Origin: Caldifarciminota bacterium
GTDB lineage: Bacteria > Hydrothermota > Tepidihabitantia > SM23-42
NCBI GenBank assembly: GCA_020355325.1
Contig: CP070664.1
Coordinates: forward strand, 1,938,358 to 1,984,833
DNA length: 46,476 nt
Direction of reading: 5' to 3'
Position 1 is the stretch's first letter; each line of letters opens with the position of its first letter. The notes beneath the pieces were generated by a model that saw only the letters and a program-made list of their open reading frames with translations, had not been told where the DNA came from and searched no databases. Shown here piece by piece: positions 17,860-30,818 of the stretch. The translations under genes and the position numbers were made by a program.

Positions 17860-19059
17860 ATGGCAATAAGAGAGTTGAAACCAGACATCCATGCGATCGG
17901 CGCGATAGATTGGGATAGGCGTCTTTTCGACGAACTCATCCCCCTTCCCGATGGCACGACATATAATGCATACCTCATCAGGGGCAGTGAGAAAACCGCA
18001 CTCATTGATACGGTGGACCCAACAAAAGAGCATGAATTATTTGACAACATAAAAAAACTCAGGGTCGAGAAGATTGATTATGTGATTCCTAACCACGCTG
18101 AGCAGGATCATTCTGGCACTATCCCAAAAATTCTTGAACAGTACCCTGATGCCAAGGCAGTCACCAATTCAAAGTGCAAGAGCATGCTCATAGATCACCT
18201 CTTGATTCCTGAAAAGAGGTTTGCTGAAGTGAACGACAGAGACACGATATCTTTAGGAAATAGAACCCTGGAGTTCATCATCGCTCCCTGGGTACATTGG
18301 CCCGAAACAATGTTAACCTACCTGCGAGAAGATAAAATTCTCTTTCCATGCGACCTCTTCGGCTCCCATCTTGCAAGGAGCGATCTCTATGCTGTTGACG
18401 AAGCAAAGGTCTATGAGTCAGCAAAACGATACTATGCAGAGATTATGATGCCATTCAGAAACAACATCAAGAAACATATGGAAAAACTCAAACAGTATGA
18501 TATCGAGATGATTGCGCCGAGCCATGGACCAATCCATAATAAGCCTGAATTTATATTAAATGCTTACGCAGAGTGGATATCTGATGACGTAAAGAATGAG
18601 GTTGTTATCCCCTACGTCTCTATGCACGGGAGTACGGATAAAATGGTAGGTTATTTTGTCGATGCACTCATGAGGCGGAATATAGCCACGAAACCATTTA
18701 ATCTCACAAAAACAGATATTGGAGAACTGGCCATGTCGCTCGTCGATACCGCCACCATCGTCATTGCGACTCCTACGGTTCTCGTGGGTCCACACCCGGC
18801 TGCAGTATATGCAACGTATCTCGCCAATGCCCTGCGACCAAAGACAAAGTTTGCATCGGTGATTGGTTCATATGGATGGGGTGGAAAGATGCTGGAAACG
18901 ATCACAGGAATGCTCGGAAACCTGAAGGTAGAATTACTATCACCGGTCATCGTCAAAGGGCATCCCAAGAAACAAGACTTCGCATCTTTAGAAAAATTGG
19001 CAGAAGAGATTCTTGCAAAACATAAGGAAATCGGTATAATTCAACCGGAAGGAGGTTGA
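17860..19059 (+). CDS. Flavodiiron protein (A-type flavoprotein, FprA family)
   Basis: 399 residues. The N-terminal metallo-beta-lactamase-like domain binds a diiron site: HAEQDH, the WVHWPETM histidine, CDLFGSH and APSHGP. The C-terminal flavodoxin domain (about 250-395; SMHGSTDKM, GSYGWGG) carries FMN. Such proteins reduce O2 to water and/or NO to N2O without making radicals. The electron donor is normally rubredoxin, whose gene directly precedes it. GAGGAG lies 7 nt before the ATG. Confidence 0.95.
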   Translation: MAIRELKPDIHAIGAIDWDRRLFDELIPLPDGTTYNAYLIRGSEKTALIDTVDPTKEHELFDNIKKLRVEKIDYVIPNHAEQDHSGTIPKILEQYPDAKAVTNSKCKSMLIDHLLIPEKRFAEVNDRDTISLGNRTLEFIIAPWVHWPETMLTYLREDKILFPCDLFGSHLARSDLYAVDEAKVYESAKRYYAEIMMPFRNNIKKHMEKLKQYDIEMIAPSHGPIHNKPEFILNAYAEWISDDVKNEVVIPYVSMHGSTDKMVGYFVDALMRRNIATKPFNLTKTDIGELAMSLVDTATIVIATPTVLVGPHPAAVYATYLANALRPKTKFASVIGSYGWGGKMLETITGMLGNLKVELLSPVIVKGHPKKQDFASLEKLAEEILAKHKEIGIIQPEGG

Positions 19060-19061
19060 GA

Positions 19062-19556
19062 ATGAGTATATTTGAACCGAGTGAAATCTTTCAATTTGCA
19101 ATCCGAATCGAAGAAAATGGCGAAAAGTTTTATCGCCGTATGGCTCAAAAATTCGATGATCCAGAAGTGGGAGGGCTCTTTTCTGCCCTCGCCGATGAGG
19201 AAATTAAGCATAAGTCAGTATATGAGAAGATGGTTTCGAAGATAGAAAAATATGAACCATTCGAGAGTTACCCGGGCGAGTATTTTGAGTATCTCCGTGC
19301 CTATGCAGATACCCATATCTTTACTCCTAAAAAATTAGAAGAAGAGATGGCAACCATCAATGATGCAACTTCAGCACTCAAGTTCGCCATTGCTCGAGAA
19401 CTCGATTCTATCCTGTACTACGAGGAAATAAAAAAGCTCGTTCCTCAGAGTGAACGCGGTCTCATTGATAAAATCATTGAGGAAGAACATCGCCATTTTG
19501 TGAAACTATCGTCTTGCAAGGCGAGTAAAGATGCAGCATGCGTACGGAAGGAATAG
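19062..19556 (+). CDS. Ferritin-like diiron protein (rubrerythrin-type, no rubredoxin domain)
   Basis: 164 residues, a four-helix bundle. Diiron ligands appear as RIEENGEKFY, ADEEIKH, ARELDSILYYEE and EEEHRHF. There is no C-terminal rubredoxin domain. It probably reduces peroxide or handles iron. The ATG at 19062 is used, 6 nt after AGGAGG; a TTG at 19056 overlapping the previous stop is less likely. It follows the flavodiiron gene by 2 nt and should be co-transcribed. Confidence 0.87.
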   Translation: MSIFEPSEIFQFAIRIEENGEKFYRRMAQKFDDPEVGGLFSALADEEIKHKSVYEKMVSKIEKYEPFESYPGEYFEYLRAYADTHIFTPKKLEEEMATINDATSALKFAIARELDSILYYEEIKKLVPQSERGLIDKIIEEEHRHFVKLSSCKASKDAACVRKE

Positions 19557-19741
19557 ATGAGCAAACCACCACTGAGAAGGGCTTGCATGATGGGTGTTTC
19601 GAAGGGTAGTTTTACAATAAAAAATTACAGGGTTCAAAAGGGAGCAAAGCATAGTGAGGAAAGAAACCAGTATCATCTGTTGTGGTAAACAGATGAAAAA
19701 GAAAATCAAAGAAATAATCAGTTTTTAAGAAAGGAGATAAC

Positions 19742-20161
19742 ATGGCATCAAAAGAACTTCTTGATTTCCTTAACAAAGCAATAGCAAGGGAATTGCAGGT
19801 TACAATACAATACATGTGGCAACATGTTCTATGGAAAGGAGTTAAGGGTTTTGCAGTGAAGGACGAACTCAAGGCAATCGCTATAACTGAAATGAAGCAT
19901 GCCGAGGAGATTGCCGAGAGGCTCGCCTATCTTGGTGGCGTACCGACGACTACACCAGAACCAATCTTTGTAGGCGGAACCCTCAAGGAGATGATCGAGA
20001 AGGATAAAAAAGACGAAGAAGGAGCAGTGAAGCTCTACAAGCAGATAATAGACGTTGCCGGAAAAGAAAAAGATGAAACAACGAGAAGAATGTTTGAGAA
20101 AATATTGGCGGATGAGGAGGAACACCTCGATACATTCACCGGTCTCCTGGAAGAAATCTGA
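19742..20161 (+). CDS. Ferritin/bacterioferritin-like protein
   Basis: 139 residues, one four-helix bundle. Candidate ligands: ARELQVTIQY, TEMKHAEE, KDEEGAVKLY and ADEEEHLD, the E...ExxH...E...ExxH pattern of bacterioferritin-like proteins. It resembles short archaeal and clostridial members that oxidise and store Fe2+. AAGGAG precedes the ATG. The 185 nt before it contain no convincing gene. A bulged hairpin follows at 20193-20216. Confidence 0.87.
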   Translation: MASKELLDFLNKAIARELQVTIQYMWQHVLWKGVKGFAVKDELKAIAITEMKHAEEIAERLAYLGGVPTTTPEPIFVGGTLKEMIEKDKKDEEGAVKLYKQIIDVAGKEKDETTRRMFEKILADEEEHLDTFTGLLEEI

Positions 20162-20192
20162 ACACGATTCTCTCACAAAAGAACTATAGAGA

Positions 20193-20216
20193 GCGACGGG
20201 GAAAAATTTCCCTCGC
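20193..20216 (+). terminator. Bulged hairpin after the ferritin-like gene
   Basis: GCGA..GGGAAA and TTTCCCTCGC can pair around a short A/T centre with a small bulge. No T-run follows, so it may be an attenuator or RNA-stability element and not an intrinsic terminator. Confidence 0.35.
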
Positions 20217-20277
20217 TTGCCAGGACGGAACGTTAAGCAAAAATAATAATCAACCATAAAGTGCAAAGGAGTAAGAA

Positions 20278-20805
20278 ATGGCAGAGATAGGCCAAGACAT
20301 GCTCAATGTCATTAAAGAATCAATTACATTAGAGGTCAATGGCAGAAGTTTTTATGAACATGCTGCAGAAATTACGAATAATGATTTGGGCAAAAAAATG
20401 TTTAAAAAACTTGCCGAGGATGAAATCAGTCACATCAAAAAATTTGGCGAAATGTTCACTAATGCACTCGGCAGCGATGAATGGAAAAAGTATATTTAGC
20501 AACAAGAACAGAATAAATCTACTGTTCTCGAAGAACTGAAGGCTCGGATACAGAAGCAAGAAAAACAAGAACGGACAGGCGAAATGGAAGCATTAAGAAT
20601 TGGATTGGAGCTCGAGCGGAAATCTATCGATCACTACAAGAAATCGGCCCAACAAACAGACGACACAGCGGCGCAAGAGATGTTCAATAAACTCGTCGAT
20701 GTAGAAGAATTCCACTATGACATGCTCCAGGCGCAATATGATCACCTTACCGGCTCGGGGTTCTGGTTTGATATCGCTGAATTTCGAATGGACGCTAAAT
20801 ACTGA
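20278..20805 (+). pseudogene. Two-domain ferritin-like protein interrupted by in-frame TAG
   Basis: The 73 residues from 20278 end at TAG (20497-20499), but the same frame stays open for 101 further codons to TGA at 20805. Together they make about 175 residues with the layout of the intact relative at 22573-23088: a first diiron helix pair (TLEVNGRSFYEHA, AEDEISH), a charged linker (LEELKARIQKQ) and a second pair (LELERKSIDHYKKSA, DVEEFHYDML). The stop falls in the linker after DEWKKYI. Without read-through only half of the ligand set is made. An internal ATG at 20584 could restart the second half, but no clear ribosome site precedes it. AAGGAG precedes the first ATG. Confidence 0.82.
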
Positions 20806-20867
20806 TAGAAAAATTCTTACGAAAAAACTGATACTACCCAAATCTACTGTTTCCTCATCAGGAGGCG

Positions 20868-21806
20868 ATGACTGTGGATAATGTAGCGATTCGAACAGTT
20901 GTGCCCATTCTATTACTCATCGGGATTGGTGCCGCGTCAAAGAAGTTTGGCATTCTCAAACCTGGCGATGAACGCGTACTCAGTTCCTACATCTATTATT
21001 TTGCATTACCTGCCCTTCTTCTTGTAAATATTGCAGAAACAATCTTTACGGCTCAGACATTAAAATTCATGGTCGCCGGCGTCATCCCTGTCATCACCGT
21101 TTTGCTCATCTATCTCATACTTCATATACTATTTCGGTTTGCACGAAATTCGTTTTACCTCCTGACCTTGAGTACGATATTCGGTAGTTGGGGGTTCTAT
21201 GGTATCCCCTTCGTAATGTTTGCCTTTCCTACGCGGCAGGCAGAACGCCTGGCTATCTTGGCGCTGGTTTCTATCGCAGTGGTGAGTTTTTCTATAGCAC
21301 TCACGATTCTTGAACTGTACAAACTCCGGAAAACCACAATAGGAAAAGGATTACTTCAGGTGGCAAAACGATTATCGAGGAACCCTTTGATCCTCTCAAT
21401 CGCCTGCGGTTTTCTCCTCGCACTCACTGGTATAAAACTTCCCTCTCCCCTCGCTACGTCATTACATATGTTAGGCGGAACAACGGCGACAGTAGCGATT
21501 TTTCTACTCGGTGCTTTCCTCTACGGAAGGAAGTACACAAACATCATCACCGCACTGAAGTTGGGTTCACTGAAGATACTATTGTTACCTCTCATTGCCG
21601 TTGTCACCACGAGATTACTCAATATATCCGACCCTGAACGATCGATCCTCATCCTCATGCACGCAATGCCCGTTGCCCTCTCTATGATTGTGCTGAGCGA
21701 GCGTTATGATTTTTACAAAGACACAATCGCGACACTCATTCTCGTATCATCGATCGGCGCAGTCGTCTATTTAAACCTGTGGCTCTTCGTCCTCGGTCAT
21801 CACTAA
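20868..21806 (+). CDS. AEC-family (auxin efflux carrier-type) permease
   Basis: 312 residues, about ten membrane helices in two repeats of five. The N-terminus has VVPILLLIGIGAASKKFGILKPGDE and YYFALPALLLVNIAE, as in bacterial AEC/malonate-type transporters. The C-terminal half contains ALTGIKLPSPL and HAMPVALSMIVLSERYDF. The substrate is unknown; relatives export or import small organic acids. GGAGG precedes the ATG. It interrupts the ferritin-like series and has no evident functional tie to it. Confidence 0.87.
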   Translation: MTVDNVAIRTVVPILLLIGIGAASKKFGILKPGDERVLSSYIYYFALPALLLVNIAETIFTAQTLKFMVAGVIPVITVLLIYLILHILFRFARNSFYLLTLSTIFGSWGFYGIPFVMFAFPTRQAERLAILALVSIAVVSFSIALTILELYKLRKTTIGKGLLQVAKRLSRNPLILSIACGFLLALTGIKLPSPLATSLHMLGGTTATVAIFLLGAFLYGRKYTNIITALKLGSLKILLLPLIAVVTTRLLNISDPERSILILMHAMPVALSMIVLSERYDFYKDTIATLILVSSIGAVVYLNLWLFVLGHH

Positions 21807-21831
21807 ATAAAAACCTAATCGAGATTATAAC

Positions 21832-22479
21832 ATGCTTAAGCTGGCGATTGATACGATGAGCAAGGGTCTGCGTATCGATAATTATAGACTGTATACAAAA
21901 AAAGTTCTCAGGGGCCGATTTCGTGAAGAGGTGAATGTTGACCTCTGGTTGCGTAAAAACAATGCTGACGTTCATCTCATGTTTCTCAAAGTATTCTATG
22001 GCAGACCACCGTATTACAAACCATGGGTAGAATTCTTCAATATAAATGAACACGTGAAGATAAAAAACATGGAGATTGATTATTTCGATTCTCCTGTCGA
22101 AACCGCATTGTTACAGCTCTTTGCTCAACACATTGAACCGGGTGAAAATATGTTTGTTGAGTATGATAATGACAAGGAAACGAAAAAACAGCTCGAGGTC
22201 GGGTTTCCAGAACCTGTCAGCCGTCTTGGCTACAAATTATTCAACCTTGGTTTTACGTGGTTTAAGGACTGGTATTTTCCTGAAGGGTTTATGGAGGGTG
22301 ACCAGAAGCTACAGGCAGAGAAGCCGCTCAATGAAACACAGAAAATGCGCCACCTTGAGAGAATAGCACACCACGTACAAGCATTTCTTGAGCGTATAAA
22401 CGAGAGAAGCTCGGAATGGTATGCAGAGCGTACACTTGAGAGGGCTCATAGCATACTCAGGAAACTGAGCGATAATTAA
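21832..22479 (+). CDS. Conserved hypothetical protein (possibly DUF1122)
   Basis: 215 residues, cytoplasmic, no signal peptide or membrane helix. The striking block is RLGYKLFNLGFTWFKDWYFPEGFMEGDQKLQAEKP (about 125-160), which I associate from memory with the uncharacterised DUF1122 family; this needs a profile search. The C-terminal 50 residues are helical and charged, possibly a coiled coil. It begins 25 nt after the permease with no strong ribosome site. Function unknown. Confidence 0.7.
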   Translation: MLKLAIDTMSKGLRIDNYRLYTKKVLRGRFREEVNVDLWLRKNNADVHLMFLKVFYGRPPYYKPWVEFFNINEHVKIKNMEIDYFDSPVETALLQLFAQHIEPGENMFVEYDNDKETKKQLEVGFPEPVSRLGYKLFNLGFTWFKDWYFPEGFMEGDQKLQAEKPLNETQKMRHLERIAHHVQAFLERINERSSEWYAERTLERAHSILRKLSDN

Positions 22480-22572
22480 TGAAGGTTTCATTTCAAAAGT
22501 ATTTCTATAGTAATAGTAGTAAATCTTTTATGTGAAAGTTTGTCTAAATATGTGAGGGCGGGAAAGGATTAA

Positions 22573-23088
22573 ATGATGGATAAGAAAAAGGCAATCGCAG
22601 GTCTTAAAATTGCCCTTCAGACCGAGCTGAACGGCATAGAGTTTTATAAGATGGCAGCCGAGAGGACCGACGATAAGAAGGGGAAAGAGGTCTTCTCCAT
22701 GCTGGCAGAGGATGAAGTCAAACACTTCAACACGCTGCAAAAACATTATCAGTCATTGATTACATCATCGAAGTGGGCACCCTCGATATCACTGGGCGAG
22801 GCGTCGACGATATTCAAGGGAGAAAGTCCAATATTCTCGGATGAGCTAAAATCTCGAATCCGGGAAAAGCACTTTGAGATGTCGGCACTCAGTATTGGTG
22901 CACTCTTGGAATCAAATTCCATCGATTTCTATCGGCAGATGAAAGAATCAACCGATGACGAAATTGCAAGAAAATTATTCGCAGACCTCCAGAAGTGGGA
23001 AGAGGAACATCTCGAGGCGATTACCAAGCAGCTCGATCTGTTGAAAGAAGAGTACTGGGCAGAACAGAAATTCACTCCGTTGTTCTGA
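22573..23088 (+). CDS. Two-domain ferritin-like diiron protein
   Basis: 171 residues arranged as two helix-pair halves. The first has QTELNGIEFYKMAAE and AEDEVKHF; the second LLESNSIDFYRQM and QKWEEEHLEA, giving the E/ExxH ligand set of rubrerythrin-like bundles without a rubredoxin domain. It is the intact homologue of the TAG-interrupted gene at 20278-20805. Several ATGs (22573, 22576) could start it; GGAAAGG lies upstream. It leads the TusA-DsrE-IscS-IscU cluster. Confidence 0.86.
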   Translation: MMDKKKAIAGLKIALQTELNGIEFYKMAAERTDDKKGKEVFSMLAEDEVKHFNTLQKHYQSLITSSKWAPSISLGEASTIFKGESPIFSDELKSRIREKHFEMSALSIGALLESNSIDFYRQMKESTDDEIARKLFADLQKWEEEHLEAITKQLDLLKEEYWAEQKFTPLF

Positions 23089-23121
23089 AAAGGTACATCT
23101 GCCGAGAGGGAGGAGATAGAA

Positions 23122-23361
23122 ATGCAAGAAACGAAACCGAGAAAAACGCTGGATTGTATTGGATTATACTGCCCGCAGCCGCTCTTTCAAACACGCGAAC
23201 AGATCGATTCGATCGAAGTAGGGGAAATTTTGGAAGTTCTCGCTGATGATCCAGCAGCAGAAGAGGATTTAAAACGTTTTGCAAAACGAACAGGGCATGA
23301 AATCGTCTCTATTGAGAAACAAGGAGATGTTTTAAGATTTTTAATCAGGAAAAATAAATAG
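23122..23361 (+). CDS. TusA-family sulfur carrier
   Basis: 79 residues with the TusA fold. The active-site motif is YCPQPLFQTRE (CPxP), whose Cys carries a persulfide. TusA proteins pass sulfur from a donor to acceptors such as DsrE-type proteins. GGGAGGAG precedes the ATG. The TAG stop is followed in the same frame, after three codons, by the DsrE start. Confidence 0.9.
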   Translation: MQETKPRKTLDCIGLYCPQPLFQTREQIDSIEVGEILEVLADDPAAEEDLKRFAKRTGHEIVSIEKQGDVLRFLIRKNK

Positions 23362-23370
23362 GAGTTTATC

Positions 23371-23733
23371 ATGGATAAAAAGAAATCTATACTGTATGTC
23401 CAAACGAGCGATATACCAGAGAGGCAGTATTCGCCACTGGTCTTGGCTCAGACCGCAAAGGCAATGGATCTCGATGCAAAAGTCTACTATTTGGGTCAGG
23501 GCTTGAGAATATTAAAGCCCGGCGAGGCAGAAAAGATTAAACTGGGAGCCTTCCCGAGCGTCGCCGAGATGATGGAAAAGACCCTTGCAATGGGTATTGA
23601 AATTTATGTGTGTGAGGCATCGAAACAGATGCTCGGTTGGGAAAAAGTTGAGTTGATACCCGGTGTAAAGATCGTCGGAGCTGGGACCTTAAACGATTTA
23701 GCACTCGAAGCCGACGCGACGATGTGGTTTTAG
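23371..23733 (+). CDS. DsrE-family sulfur-relay protein
   Basis: 120 residues with a DsrE/DsrF-like fold: N-terminal strand SILYVQTSD, PLVLAQTAKAMD, YLGQG, and IEIYVCEASKQMLGW, whose Cys is placed where DsrE proteins hold a persulfide. It follows TusA directly, matching the usual TusA-DsrE sulfur relay. GGAG lies before the ATG. In this context it may deliver sulfur to the IscS-like/IscU pair. Confidence 0.88.
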   Translation: MDKKKSILYVQTSDIPERQYSPLVLAQTAKAMDLDAKVYYLGQGLRILKPGEAEKIKLGAFPSVAEMMEKTLAMGIEIYVCEASKQMLGWEKVELIPGVKIVGAGTLNDLALEADATMWF

Positions 23734-23750
23734 ACGGAGAGCCGGCTCAT

Positions 23751-24905
23751 ATGGATGTGTACCTCGACTATCAATCTTCAAAGCCTGTTGATCCGCGGGT
23801 GATCGAGGCGATGCAGCCGTATTTTTATACTACGTTCGGAAACCCCTCTTCCCTGCACAGTAGTGGTGACAAAGCTACAAGGGTACTGGACCAGTGCCGT
23901 CATACTCTTGCCGACTTCATCCACGCCCAACCAGATGAAATCATATTTACCTCTGGTGCGACCGAGTCGAACAATCTTTCACTCATCGGCTATGCCATGC
24001 GCAATAAAAATAAGGGAAACCACATACTCATTTCCGAAATCGAACACATTTCCATTCACAACATCGCGAAGTACCTGGAAAAGAATGGCTTTACCGTCAC
24101 AAAAATTCCTGTAGACCAGTATGGCAGGGTCGGTCTGAGAAAAATCGAGGAGAGAATAACCGAAAAAACAATTCTCATCTCGATTGGCTATGCGAACAAC
24201 GAGATAGGGACGGTGCAACCAATAGCTGAGATTGGCAAACTCTGTAAGGGAAAAGGCATTGCATTCCATACAGATGCCGTGGCTGCAGAAGGCCTTTTAC
24301 CCCTCGATGTAGAAAAAGACAACATCGATCTCCTCACGCTTTCCTCCAATGATATCTATGGGCCAAAAGGTGTTGGCGTGCTGTATGGAGCAAAAGGCTT
24401 TCGCATGACTCCGATCATTATCGGCGGTGGTCAAGAAAACGGTCTACGCTCCGGCACAGAAAACATTCCAGGCATTGTCGGAATGGCAAAGGCAGCAGAG
24501 ATAATTCAAAAGGAAATGGCTGAAGAGGTAAAACGATTTCAAGGGTATCGCGACCGGCTCATCGAGAACATACTCAAAACGATTCCACGGTCGCATTTGA
24601 ACGGTCATCCGACCGAGCGACTTCCAAACAATGCACATTTCAGATTTGACGGAATTGAAGGTGAGTCGCTTCTTTTATCATTGAAAGATAAGGGTATAGC
24701 AGCGTCAACCGGTTCTGCCTGTTCGTCAAAGACGTTGGAACCTTCACACACGCTCATTGCGCTGGGGCTTTTACATGAAGAGGCACATGGCTCTCTGGAA
24801 TTTACGTGTGGTCGATTCAATAGAGATAACGATATTGATGCGGTTCTCAAAGCACTGCCTGAAGTCGTCGAGCGATTGAGAAAGCTATCACCGCTCTATA
24901 AATAA
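23751..24905 (+). CDS. IscS/NifS-like protein lacking the PLP lysine
   Basis: 384 residues, class V aminotransferase fold, the usual IscS length. Present: TSGATESNN, EHISIHN, GGGQENGLRSGTEN, and the mobile-loop Cys324 in TGSACSSKT. Missing: the lysine that forms the PLP aldimine (normally SGHK-YGPKG) is Asp201 in SSNDIYGPKG, and the PLP-contacting Gln of the DAxQ motif is Ala178 in HTDAVAAEG. It therefore should not carry out PLP-dependent cysteine desulfuration. From memory, the Archaeoglobus fulgidus IscS has the same Lys-to-Asp change and was reported inactive. The ATG at 23751 follows GGAGA; an earlier in-frame start would overlap DsrE. The IscU-type gene follows directly. Confidence 0.88.
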   Translation: MDVYLDYQSSKPVDPRVIEAMQPYFYTTFGNPSSLHSSGDKATRVLDQCRHTLADFIHAQPDEIIFTSGATESNNLSLIGYAMRNKNKGNHILISEIEHISIHNIAKYLEKNGFTVTKIPVDQYGRVGLRKIEERITEKTILISIGYANNEIGTVQPIAEIGKLCKGKGIAFHTDAVAAEGLLPLDVEKDNIDLLTLSSNDIYGPKGVGVLYGAKGFRMTPIIIGGGQENGLRSGTENIPGIVGMAKAAEIIQKEMAEEVKRFQGYRDRLIENILKTIPRSHLNGHPTERLPNNAHFRFDGIEGESLLLSLKDKGIAASTGSACSSKTLEPSHTLIALGLLHEEAHGSLEFTCGRFNRDNDIDAVLKALPEVVERLRKLSPLYK

Positions 24906-24925
24906 TAGAAAAGGAAAGGAGGAAT

Positions 24926-25699
24926 ATGAAGTCTACACAATATTCTGAAAAAGTCTTAGATCATTTTCGGAATCCAAGAAATGTCGGTACGCTGGAGGGA
25001 GAGAACGTCGCCGTAGGACGCGTCGGAAATCCTGTGTGTGGCGACCTCATGGAGTTCTACATTAAGGTCAAGGATGACACAATAGAAGACATAAAATTCA
25101 AGACATTCGGCTGTGGTTCGGCAATTGCCACGGCGAGCATGATAACAGAGTTGGCCAAAGGGAAAACTATTGAAGAAGCCCTCAAAATCACACGCCAAGA
25201 TGTCGCCGATGAATTGGATGGTCTTCCTCCCATAAAAATGCACTGCTCGAATCTTGCCGCGGATGCACTCAAGGATGCAATTCATAATTACAAGACGAAG
25301 CAAAAGCCAAAGGGAGAAGTGCCCGAAGAAGCAAAAGAGTGTAAAGAAGGTATTGCCGGAGTAGATAAATTTATCGATAGAGGCGTTTACTTTACGGTCG
25401 ACGATCCAACAACACTCAAAGACAAGCGAACCATGGTGCTGGACAGAGGAGAACAATCGATCAATCTCGCCCTCGAATTGACAAAACATACATCGAGGGT
25501 CGTATTCGTTACACCTACGAAAGATATCTCCGCATCACCGGATTTAAAGACGAAATTAAAACAATCGGATATTAAGGTTCTCTACGAATCAAAGATCTTA
25601 GAGATTACAGGCGTGAGCGAAGTAGAAAAGGTTCGTATCCATGATCTCAATGAGGATGAAGAGTACGAACTTTTCATAGACGCGCTTATCATACTATAA
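24926..25699 (+). CDS. IscU scaffold fused to a degenerate thioredoxin-reductase NAD domain
   Basis: 257 residues. Residues 1-125 are a complete IscU: Cys38 and Asp40 in GNPVCGDLM, Cys63 in TFGCGSA, Cys107 in KMHCSNLA. After a charged linker, residues about 145-257 follow the NADPH-binding domain of thioredoxin reductase: RGVYFTVDD sits where the redox CxxC would be and has no Cys, VLDRGEQSINLALELTK replaces the GGGxSAxEEAL Rossmann motif, then RVVFVTPTKD, and the segment ends DALIIL. The nucleotide Gly-rich loop is lost, so it may be a binding or regulatory module. A strong AGGAGG precedes the ATG. Confidence 0.85.
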   Translation: MKSTQYSEKVLDHFRNPRNVGTLEGENVAVGRVGNPVCGDLMEFYIKVKDDTIEDIKFKTFGCGSAIATASMITELAKGKTIEEALKITRQDVADELDGLPPIKMHCSNLAADALKDAIHNYKTKQKPKGEVPEEAKECKEGIAGVDKFIDRGVYFTVDDPTTLKDKRTMVLDRGEQSINLALELTKHTSRVVFVTPTKDISASPDLKTKLKQSDIKVLYESKILEITGVSEVEKVRIHDLNEDEEYELFIDALIIL

Positions 25700-25764
25700 G
25701 TGGTCTTAACATTTATAGGCTCTCACTATGTCGTACTATTAATTAAATAATAAAGGAGGATACT

Positions 25765-26187
25765 ATGACAGTAACGATAGAACAAATTATCACATTACTC
25801 AATAAAGATTTAGAGTTAGAATACTCTGCAGCCATTCAGTACATCAATCATGCTGCCGTCATGACCGGTGCAGAGTTTGGTGATATCATTAAGGAGTTAA
25901 AGATCCACGCGAATGAAGAAATCCAACATGCAGTGATACTGGCAGATCAGATCGACTACTTAGGAGGATCGCCCAGTGTTAATGTCGGCAAGATAATGAC
26001 ATCCAAAGACAATAGAGAAATGTTGCAACAGGATTTAGACGGAGAGGAGGATGCGATTAAGAGATATAAGATGCGAGTAGAACAGGCAGAATCCCTGAAA
26101 GAATACGCCCTGGCACAGCAATTGAGAACAATTCTGGCAACCGAGCAAGAACATGCCATGGATCTGAAACAGGCACTCGGGAAATAG
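25765..26187 (+). CDS. Bacterioferritin-like diiron protein
   Basis: 140 residues, one four-helix bundle with LNKDLELEYSAAIQY, ANEEIQHAV, DGEEDAIKRY and ATEQEHAMD, the E...ExxH...E...ExxH set. It resembles the copy at 19742-20161 more than the rubrerythrin-like copies. AAGGAGG precedes the ATG. It ends in TAG immediately followed by the ATG of the DUF2156 gene in the same frame. Confidence 0.87.
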   Translation: MTVTIEQIITLLNKDLELEYSAAIQYINHAAVMTGAEFGDIIKELKIHANEEIQHAVILADQIDYLGGSPSVNVGKIMTSKDNREMLQQDLDGEEDAIKRYKMRVEQAESLKEYALAQQLRTILATEQEHAMDLKQALGK

Positions 26188-30028: not shown

Positions 30029-30313
30029 ATGGAAATGAAACACATCGAGGGTAAGAATCGGGGAAAAATCTTACTCTACGCATTGAGCACCTGCGTATGG
30101 TGTAAAAAAACCAAGCGATTACTCAATAATTTAGGTGTGGCCTATGATTATGTCGATGTCGACCTCCTTGATACAGAGGAGAAAGACAAAATAAAAAGAG
30201 AGATCGCTCGCTGGAATCCACGGACGTCGTTTCCTACAATTGTCATAGATGATAACAAATGCATCGTTGGCTTTGATGAGAAAAAAATCAAAGAGGAGAT
30301 TGGAAATGAGTAG
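30029..30313 (+). CDS. Glutaredoxin-like thiol-disulfide protein
   Basis: 94 residues with a thioredoxin fold. The redox motif is CVWC in [16 protein letters not shown], the cis-Pro segment TSFPTIVID, and a C-terminal GFDEKKI. It resembles anaerobe NrdH/glutaredoxin-type proteins reduced by ferredoxin-linked reductases. Its stop overlaps the next gene, a ferredoxin:disulfide reductase, which is its likely reductant. AAGGAG lies upstream of the ATG. Confidence 0.88.
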
Positions 30314-30818
30314 CGAACAAAATATAGACCAAAAAGAGATACAAAAACTGTATGAAAAACTCAAGAAAGAAGCAGAGGCCGGCGGTTACCACCTCAACCC
30401 TGATGTTGCGTTTGCACAAGAACTCGTCTACGGATTACTGGTTAATGAAAAAAGATATGGCTACTGGTCATGCCCATGCAGGTTAGCATCGGGTACAAAA
30501 GAAGAAGACCTCGATATTATATGCCCCTGCGATTATAGAGATCCGGATTTGAACGAATTTGATACCTGTTATTGCGGGCTCTATGTGTCACGTGCCGTCG
30601 TCGAGGGTAAAAAAGAGATCAGTAAAATTCCTGAACGACGTCCTCCAGAAGCGGAAAGAAAGAAAACAGAACCCAAAGCAGAAGGCACTACCCTTTCGGC
30701 TCTACCCTATCCTGTCTGGCGATGCAAGGTCTGTGGCTACTTATGCGCACGGGATGAGCCACCCGAAGTGTGTCCAATATGCAAAGCGAAAAAAGAAAGA
30801 TTTGAGAGGTTCATGTAA
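30306..30818 (+). CDS. Ferredoxin:disulfide reductase catalytic subunit fused to rubredoxin
   Basis: 170 residues. Residues 1-115 match the catalytic subunit of ferredoxin:thioredoxin reductase: CPC at 56-58, CPC at 73-75 and CYC at 88-90 supply the [4Fe-4S] ligands and the active disulfide. After a charged linker, residues 138-170 form a compact rubredoxin domain (C140, C143, C156, C159). The fusion would take electrons from ferredoxin or rubredoxin and reduce the overlapping glutaredoxin. The ATG at 30306 overlaps the glutaredoxin gene by 8 nt. A similar fused enzyme is known from methanogens. Confidence 0.9.

Follow-up and report, generated by a model that had tools for sequence, protein, structure and literature searches.

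IscS proteins without the catalytic lysine are already known. The IscS of Archaeoglobus fulgidus, represented by the structures 4eb5, 4eb7, 4hvk and 4r5f, carries aspartate at the lysine position (Asp199) within the motif SSNDIYGPKG, retains the loop cysteine and the lysine that follows it, and is partnered by IscU. It has no desulfurase activity owing to the change of lysine to aspartate, and IscS1 of Methanosarcina acetivorans (MA0808) is likewise reported to be without the catalytic lysine; the latter occurs with IscU1, which at 24.2 kDa is larger than usual, and with four genes of unknown function, and it formed inclusion bodies when expressed in Escherichia coli (PMC7585200). PMC9769115 describes an A. 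fulgidus IscS-IscU complex in which a [2Fe-2S] cluster is ligated by Cys321 of IscS. In the canonical E. coli system, with structures of IscS (3lvm) and of its complexes with TusA (3lvj) and IscU (3lvl), TusA receives sulfur from IscS, for which it competes with IscU; its cysteine lies approximately 4 Å from the IscS loop cysteine, and its Asp45 and Asp51 are implicated in sulfur transfer (PMC2854127). TusA and DsrE proteins are also known from other relays, namely TusA-TusBCD for tRNA and DsrE/TusA in sulfur oxidisers, and genomes without SufS, with mechanisms as yet undefined, have been discussed (PMC8351635). In the searchable open literature we found no description of a subfamily of lysine-less IscS proteins that spans both domains and neighbors TusA and DsrE; the original A. 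fulgidus papers lay outside that search and may mention the neighbors.

The window analyzed here is a stretch of 46,476 nucleotides from a Caldifarciminota bacterium, and it encodes an IscS-like protein of 384 amino acids, without the PLP lysine, at positions 23751 to 24905 of the forward strand. The open reading frame is intact, and its translation carries SSN-D201-IYGPKG, DAVA178 and GSAC324; an in-frame GTG lies upstream of the start at 23724, and its use would make the gene overlap that of DsrE. Asp201 (codon 24351 to 24353) stands at the position of the aldimine lysine and is preceded by Asn200, where lysine-type proteins have histidine, the two codons reading AAT-GAT at 24348 to 24353. 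The register is certain, as lysine fills the Asp201 column in all 46 lysine-type IscS proteins compared. Ala178 (24282 to 24284) replaces the active-site glutamine and Glu350 (24798 to 24800) the C-terminal arginine, and Cys324 (24720 to 24722) on the mobile loop is followed three residues later by Lys327 (24729 to 24731). The initial annotation had recognized the aspartate in place of the PLP lysine, the missing glutamine, and the retention of the loop cysteine and of the overall fold, and translation, alignment and structural comparison bear it out on all of these.

The protein has a class-V aminotransferase fold (Pfam Aminotran_5, 256.6 bits). Its AlphaFold2 model has a mean pLDDT of 90.3, with weak regions at residues 224 to 226 and at the cysteine loop, residues 323 to 328, where pLDDT falls below 50. 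The best PDB matches to the model in Foldseek were the A. fulgidus structures 4hvk, 4r5f, 4eb5 and 4eb7, at 54 to 56% identity, TM scores of 0.93 to 0.94 and rmsd values of 1.4 to 1.8 Å, and a sequence search likewise placed A. fulgidus IscS at the top with 476 bits, compared with 350 bits for the best lysine-type enzyme. E. coli IscS also matches the model in fold (TM 0.94 in Foldseek) and shares with the window protein the loop cysteine and both TusA and IscU as partners, but the two are 42 to 43% identical in sequence, and the PLP lysine, histidine, glutamine and arginine of the enzyme are all missing from the window protein: the Schiff-base motif (S/A/G)HKxYGPKG is absent, and columns 178, 200 and 350 hold Ala, Asn and Glu. 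What it shares with the inactive A. fulgidus type is the aspartate after SSN and placement in the same clade, and the parallel that the initial annotation drew was correct. The two differ at column 350, which is Leu in A. fulgidus IscS, and in that both the A. fulgidus and the M. acetivorans proteins are archaeal. The window protein passes only the broad NCBIfam subfamily model NF002806 (327.9 versus 304 bits), and "cysteine desulfurase" is probably a misannotation across the whole subfamily.

An alignment of 125 of these aspartate-type proteins (D-types) with 46 lysine-type proteins extends the comparison beyond the single lysine. None of the 125 D-types has lysine at the aldimine position, column 178 is Ala, Pro or Val in every one, and column 200 is always Asn, although this asparagine and Asp201 are partly a selection effect, the search motif itself having named N-D. 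At column 350, arginine was found in only 1 of the 120 D-types with a residue there. Among the lysine-types, in comparison, Gln178, His200 and Arg350 are each present in 45 of 46. In this enzyme class, the C-terminal arginine is expected to bind the carboxylate of the substrate. Cys324, Asp175, Thr71 and Arg233 are retained in all 125 D-types and His99 in 124, while Asn150 is variable; Lys327, Arg298, Arg84, Lys107 and Ser234 are new constants common to the D-types. With the lysine, Gln178, His200 and Arg350 lost and Cys324 kept, the desulfurase site has been abandoned as a whole and the sulfur-bearing loop retained. The initial annotation, which had missed the changes at His200 and Arg350, had allowed that another conserved lysine might take the aldimine position, and the alignment of D-types and lysine-types contains none. 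Lys327, present in 122 of 125 D-types and 5 of 46 lysine-types, is the only newly conserved lysine near the active cysteine; it belongs to the mobile loop, three residues past that cysteine, and stands outside the aldimine column of the alignment. A TusA-binding surface specific to the D-types was also sought and none was found, columns 47 and 50 of helix alpha2, where TusA binds in E. coli, being alike in D-types and lysine-types.

Some loci show further variation at the same positions. Two archaeal loci with a TusA-DsrE-IscU operon, L237 and L238, have asparagine in place of the aspartate that contacts the PLP ring nitrogen (HVNATAA), and L238 has glutamate in place of Asp201 (SSNELYGPRG). 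Threonine, serine or asparagine at the lysine position, combined with Ala or Gly at the glutamine position, was seen in L157 and L158 (1492 to 2655 in both), L159 (1429 to 2652) and L189 (2974 to 4197). The Thr and Ser forms, whose genomes share the class of the window genome, branch at the edge of the clade formed by the Asp and Glu proteins.

Scanning a species-genome collection with a degenerate DNA pattern for N-D-x-Y-G-P-K-G-x-G gave at least 116 further D-type stretches, at least 85 of them archaeal and at least 31 bacterial. The archaeal matches among those listed include Bathyarchaeota (39), Methanobacteriota in current NCBI usage (11), Asgard groups, Thermoplasmatota, Nitrososphaerota and Hadarchaeota; the bacterial ones among those listed include Caldifarciminota/WOR-3, Stahlbacteria, Aminicenantes, Eisenbacteria, Nitrospinota, Aerophobota and deltaproteobacterial lineages such as NaphS2 and Syntrophaceae. 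Searching proteins within the phylum of Methanoperedens brought in the Archaeoglobus group and more methanogen-related archaea, with the variants SSNDIYGPRG, SSNDMYGPQG and one SSNE. Within the family of the window genome, which includes genomes labelled candidate division WOR-3 and Stahlbacteria (G012 and G015, the genomes of loci L065 and L070), 20 of the 22 other genomes searched have a D-type match at 70 to 77% identity, which is partial in two of them. Relatives of the same order and class but of other families gave matches of at most 50% identity over most of the protein, and those fetched have lysine or, in three cases, Thr or Ser. A sequencing error or chance as the source of Asp201 was rejected, given that at least 116 other genome records, and the relatives of 70 to 77% identity, have aspartate in this position.

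The D-types appear to share one origin. A first maximum-likelihood tree set them apart from the lysine-types except for one very long lysine-type row (L200), which caused the two changes of the D label on that tree. A second tree left out L200 and two further long rows, included methanogen-type rows and had 13 signature columns masked; in it, all 81 Asp or Glu rows fell on one side of a branch with SH-aLRT support of 96, joined only by two variants, one with Thr and one with Ser, and the window protein lies in this clade together with the A. fulgidus-type IscS, the placement that the initial annotation had proposed to examine by alignment and tree. The tree with the Asp and Glu proteins as a single clade had the higher likelihood and was not rejected (p-AU 0.94). 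One ancient loss of the lysine is thus the simplest reading of the sequences, repeated loss being formally possible. Pairwise dN/dS among close D-type pairs ranges from 0.04 to 0.29, indicating purifying selection.

The operon in the window lies on one strand, tusA ending 9 bp before dsrE, dsrE 17 bp before the iscS gene and this 20 bp before iscU, in agreement with the initial description of an intact, operon-embedded gene beside iscU. Across the 107 D-type loci with at least 1.2 kb of upstream sequence, TusA was found directly upstream on the same strand in 94, DsrE in 63, both in 61 and either in 96, leaving 11 with neither. The control set comprised 44 loci with enough flank, of lysine-type and a few Thr, Ser or Asn-type proteins, drawn from genomes that carry D-types or from relatives of the window genome, and none had TusA or DsrE on the IscS strand within 2.5 kb (Fisher p 4.5e-28); TusA lay nearby on the opposite strand in three of them. 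IscU follows in 96 of 114 D-type loci, compared with an IscU nearby in 16 of 49 lysine-type loci. In A. fulgidus, one locus has TusA-DsrE-IscS-IscU and the other DsrE-IscS-IscU, the protein of the latter being a 100% match to the crystallized IscS. Bacterial members are common among anaerobes, with at least 31 in the records, and linkage to TusA or DsrE is usual for D-types; the initial view of the bacterial case as a rarity was not supported.

Pfam scans of flanking proteins (75 upstream and 85 downstream) gave only thin and scattered recurrences, of HAD/P-type ATPases, rubrerythrin and acetyltransferases, and with no consistent fifth gene the core module consists of four genes. Promoter and terminator scans returned no more than chance. 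In the window, a rubrerythrin-like protein (22573 to 23088, forward strand) is encoded 33 bp upstream of tusA, a place that is conserved in the family, and a ferritin-like protein (25765 to 26187, forward strand; Pfam Ferritin, 81 bits) downstream of iscU, as also in L146, L148 and L062. More broadly, 17860 to 26187 resembles a stress and iron island, with flavodiiron-type, several rubrerythrin-like and two ferritin-like proteins around the operon, and a similar island is present in the relatives L062, L083, L102 and L127. Two consecutive 73-amino-acid frames (20278 to 20499 and 20584 to 20805) match rubrerythrin domain positions 2 to 55 and 87 to 136 and represent a split or broken rubrerythrin. 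Farther along, 30249 to 30818 encodes a ferredoxin:thioredoxin reductase catalytic chain with a C-terminal rubredoxin-like domain, directly after a glutaredoxin-like gene at 30029 to 30313.

The partner proteins, all encoded on the forward strand, retain the residues expected of sulfur carriers and a scaffold. TusA (23122 to 23361, 79 amino acids; Pfam TusA, 91.4 bits) has its sulfur-carrier Cys17 at codon 23170 to 23172. Among the TusA neighbors of D-types, Cys17 is kept in 103 of 104 and Asp43 and Asp49, which correspond to Asp45 and Asp51 of E. coli TusA, in all 104. The motif D-C-x-G-L/F-Y/F-C-P was present in the operon TusA proteins examined; it was rejected as a signature unique to the module, similar motifs occurring in some other TusA proteins. 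The DsrE-like protein (23371 to 23733, 120 amino acids; Pfam DsrE, 59.8 bits) has Cys81 at codon 23611 to 23613, a residue found in 75 of 75 DsrE neighbors. These families and carrier cysteines are those of the known TusA/DsrE relays; the difference is that in the window they are joined to an IscS-IscU pair. The IscU protein (24926 to 25699, 257 amino acids) consists of an IscU/NifU_N domain with Cys38, Asp40, Cys63 and Cys107, conserved in 105, 105, 104 and 102 of 106 IscU neighbors, respectively, and a C-terminal extension.

That extension (25331 to 25696), which the initial annotation had overlooked, is what remains of a thioredoxin-reductase-like NAD(P)H domain and has no CxxC, as matched by TIGR01292 (57.6 bits), Pyr_redox_3 and, in Foldseek, thioredoxin reductases. 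An IscU_C match inside the same reading frame was found at 53 D-type loci with enough downstream sequence. The fusion takes the form of a full-length flavoprotein of 440 to 470 amino acids in Methanoperedens and ANME-2 relatives, with a nucleotide-binding GxGxxG at the start and no CxxC in the central domain, whereas the A. fulgidus IscU has 156 amino acids and no such extension. Full-length fusions of IscU to a thioredoxin-reductase-like flavoprotein without the CxxC pair were seen on the reverse strand in L084 (602 to 1954), L045 (4494 to 5828) and L068 (720 to 2144). Conversion of persulfide sulfur to sulfide needs a reductant, and an electron-supplying origin of the IscU domain is therefore plausible. 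In the window, this domain looks degenerate.

The window genome is a single contig of 2.85 Mb, in which the operon copies of TusA and DsrE are the only members of their families. The search for a canonical IscS that the initial annotation had recommended found two lysine-type genes, with SGHK-FCGPKG at C1:30672 and SAHK-FYGPKG at C1:1688938. The genome also encodes three IscU proteins and gave no match for SufB/D, in a search that was positive in 14 of 14 control genomes. Among 42 D-type genomes surveyed, 10 had no lysine-type IscS above 200 bits, including the Bathyarchaeota chromosomes G086 and G095, several of the ten being fragmentary. In these, the sulfur must therefore come from something other than a close IscS paralogue. 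G086, G092 and G098 still encode distant class-V proteins with an HK motif, and with these and the fragmentary assemblies in mind, cysteine may yet be the sulfur source in the ten genomes.

We give an even chance to the reading that the window protein belongs to an ancient IscS subfamily and is PLP-dead, acting not as a cysteine desulfurase but as a sulfur-accepting, cluster-ligating partner of IscU in a relay from TusA and DsrE through Cys324 to IscU. In such a relay, TusA and DsrE would carry sulfane sulfur as cysteine persulfides, with inorganic sulfur or another desulfurase as its origin, and would pass it to Cys324 on the mobile loop. The loop would then swing to the IscU scaffold, where the persulfide, the cysteine thiolate or both would help to build a [2Fe-2S] cluster; at minimum, Cys324 would ligate the nascent cluster on IscU. 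The reductase-like extension of IscU, where intact, would supply electrons. The adjoining iscU and the conserved cysteine are consistent with an IscU complex and cluster ligation of the A. fulgidus kind. From sequence and by analogy, we infer the direction of flow, the source of the sulfur and cluster building as the product, and the passage of persulfide is suggested by the conserved cysteines and the known contact between TusA and IscS (PMC2854127). As sulfur in E. coli flows from IscS to TusA, the reverse flow is a proposal only, and as the two lysine-type IscS proteins of the window genome could supply sulfur, the route may still depend on cysteine. The residue losses, purifying selection, the single clade, the gene linkage and the conserved relay cysteines speak for the relay; DsrE upstream in only 63 of 107 loci, the 11 loci with neither carrier and the degenerate reductase-like domain of the window IscU speak against it.

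Of the other explanations, the one that survives best is that the protein is purely structural, a docking partner giving a cysteine ligand to an IscU [2Fe-2S] cluster that sulfidic anaerobes would assemble from free sulfide, with TusA and DsrE only co-expressed and serving another sulfur step. PMC7585200 cites the proposal of such a role for A. fulgidus IscS, to which the title of Pagnier et al. 2015 also points, and some Bathyarchaeota do keep the IscS-IscU pair without upstream TusA or DsrE. We nevertheless consider this account unlikely, since TusA or DsrE linkage recurs in 96 of 107 loci across two domains and in 0 of 44 lysine-type loci, and since the TusA and DsrE of the window genome occur only in this operon. 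Sulfur might instead move outward, with the IscS-IscU pair as a reserve of clusters or sulfur that TusA, followed by DsrE, would draw on for tRNA thiolation or another cofactor. This would agree with the E. coli direction (PMC2854127), but an IscS without PLP chemistry has no means of its own to load sulfur and IscU is its near-constant partner, and we regard such a store as quite improbable. We hold equally little expectation that the altered pocket catalyzes a different PLP- or PMP-dependent reaction: His99, Asp175, Thr71 and Arg233 are kept, so the cofactor may still bind, and PLP is shown in the A. fulgidus complex 4EB5 according to a figure legend of PMC9769115, but the lysine, Gln178, His200 and Arg350 are gone, and the ring-nitrogen aspartate has become asparagine in the archaeal L237 and L238, so the pocket is drifting. 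A decaying pseudogene carried along in the operon, to which the lost catalytic residues might point, is refuted in practice by the low dN/dS, the open reading frames, the single old clade and identities of approximately 70 to 77% across several bacterial phyla.

The initial interpretation thus stands for the lysine loss, the operon and the A. fulgidus parallel, and falls for rarity. What was a structural curiosity of A. fulgidus, an IscS unable to desulfurate cysteine, becomes a family found in both domains, and its stable gene neighborhood hints at the origin of its sulfur; with four small proteins, one possible answer is directly testable. A broader and more tentative possibility, to which we incline less than to the relay itself, is that this is a hitherto undescribed form of Fe-S assembly, widespread among anaerobic archaea and bacteria, in which an IscS with PLP chemistry permanently lost would be loaded by TusA and DsrE from inorganic sulfur, IscU clusters would be made without cysteine desulfuration, and in some lineages reduction would be NAD(P)H linked and fused to IscU. 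The module bears on the number of anaerobes, methanogens and related organisms that supply their Fe-S clusters with sulfur while lacking a functional cysteine desulfurase, and its TusA/DsrE setting suggests another sulfur route into these clusters in anaerobic bacteria and archaea.
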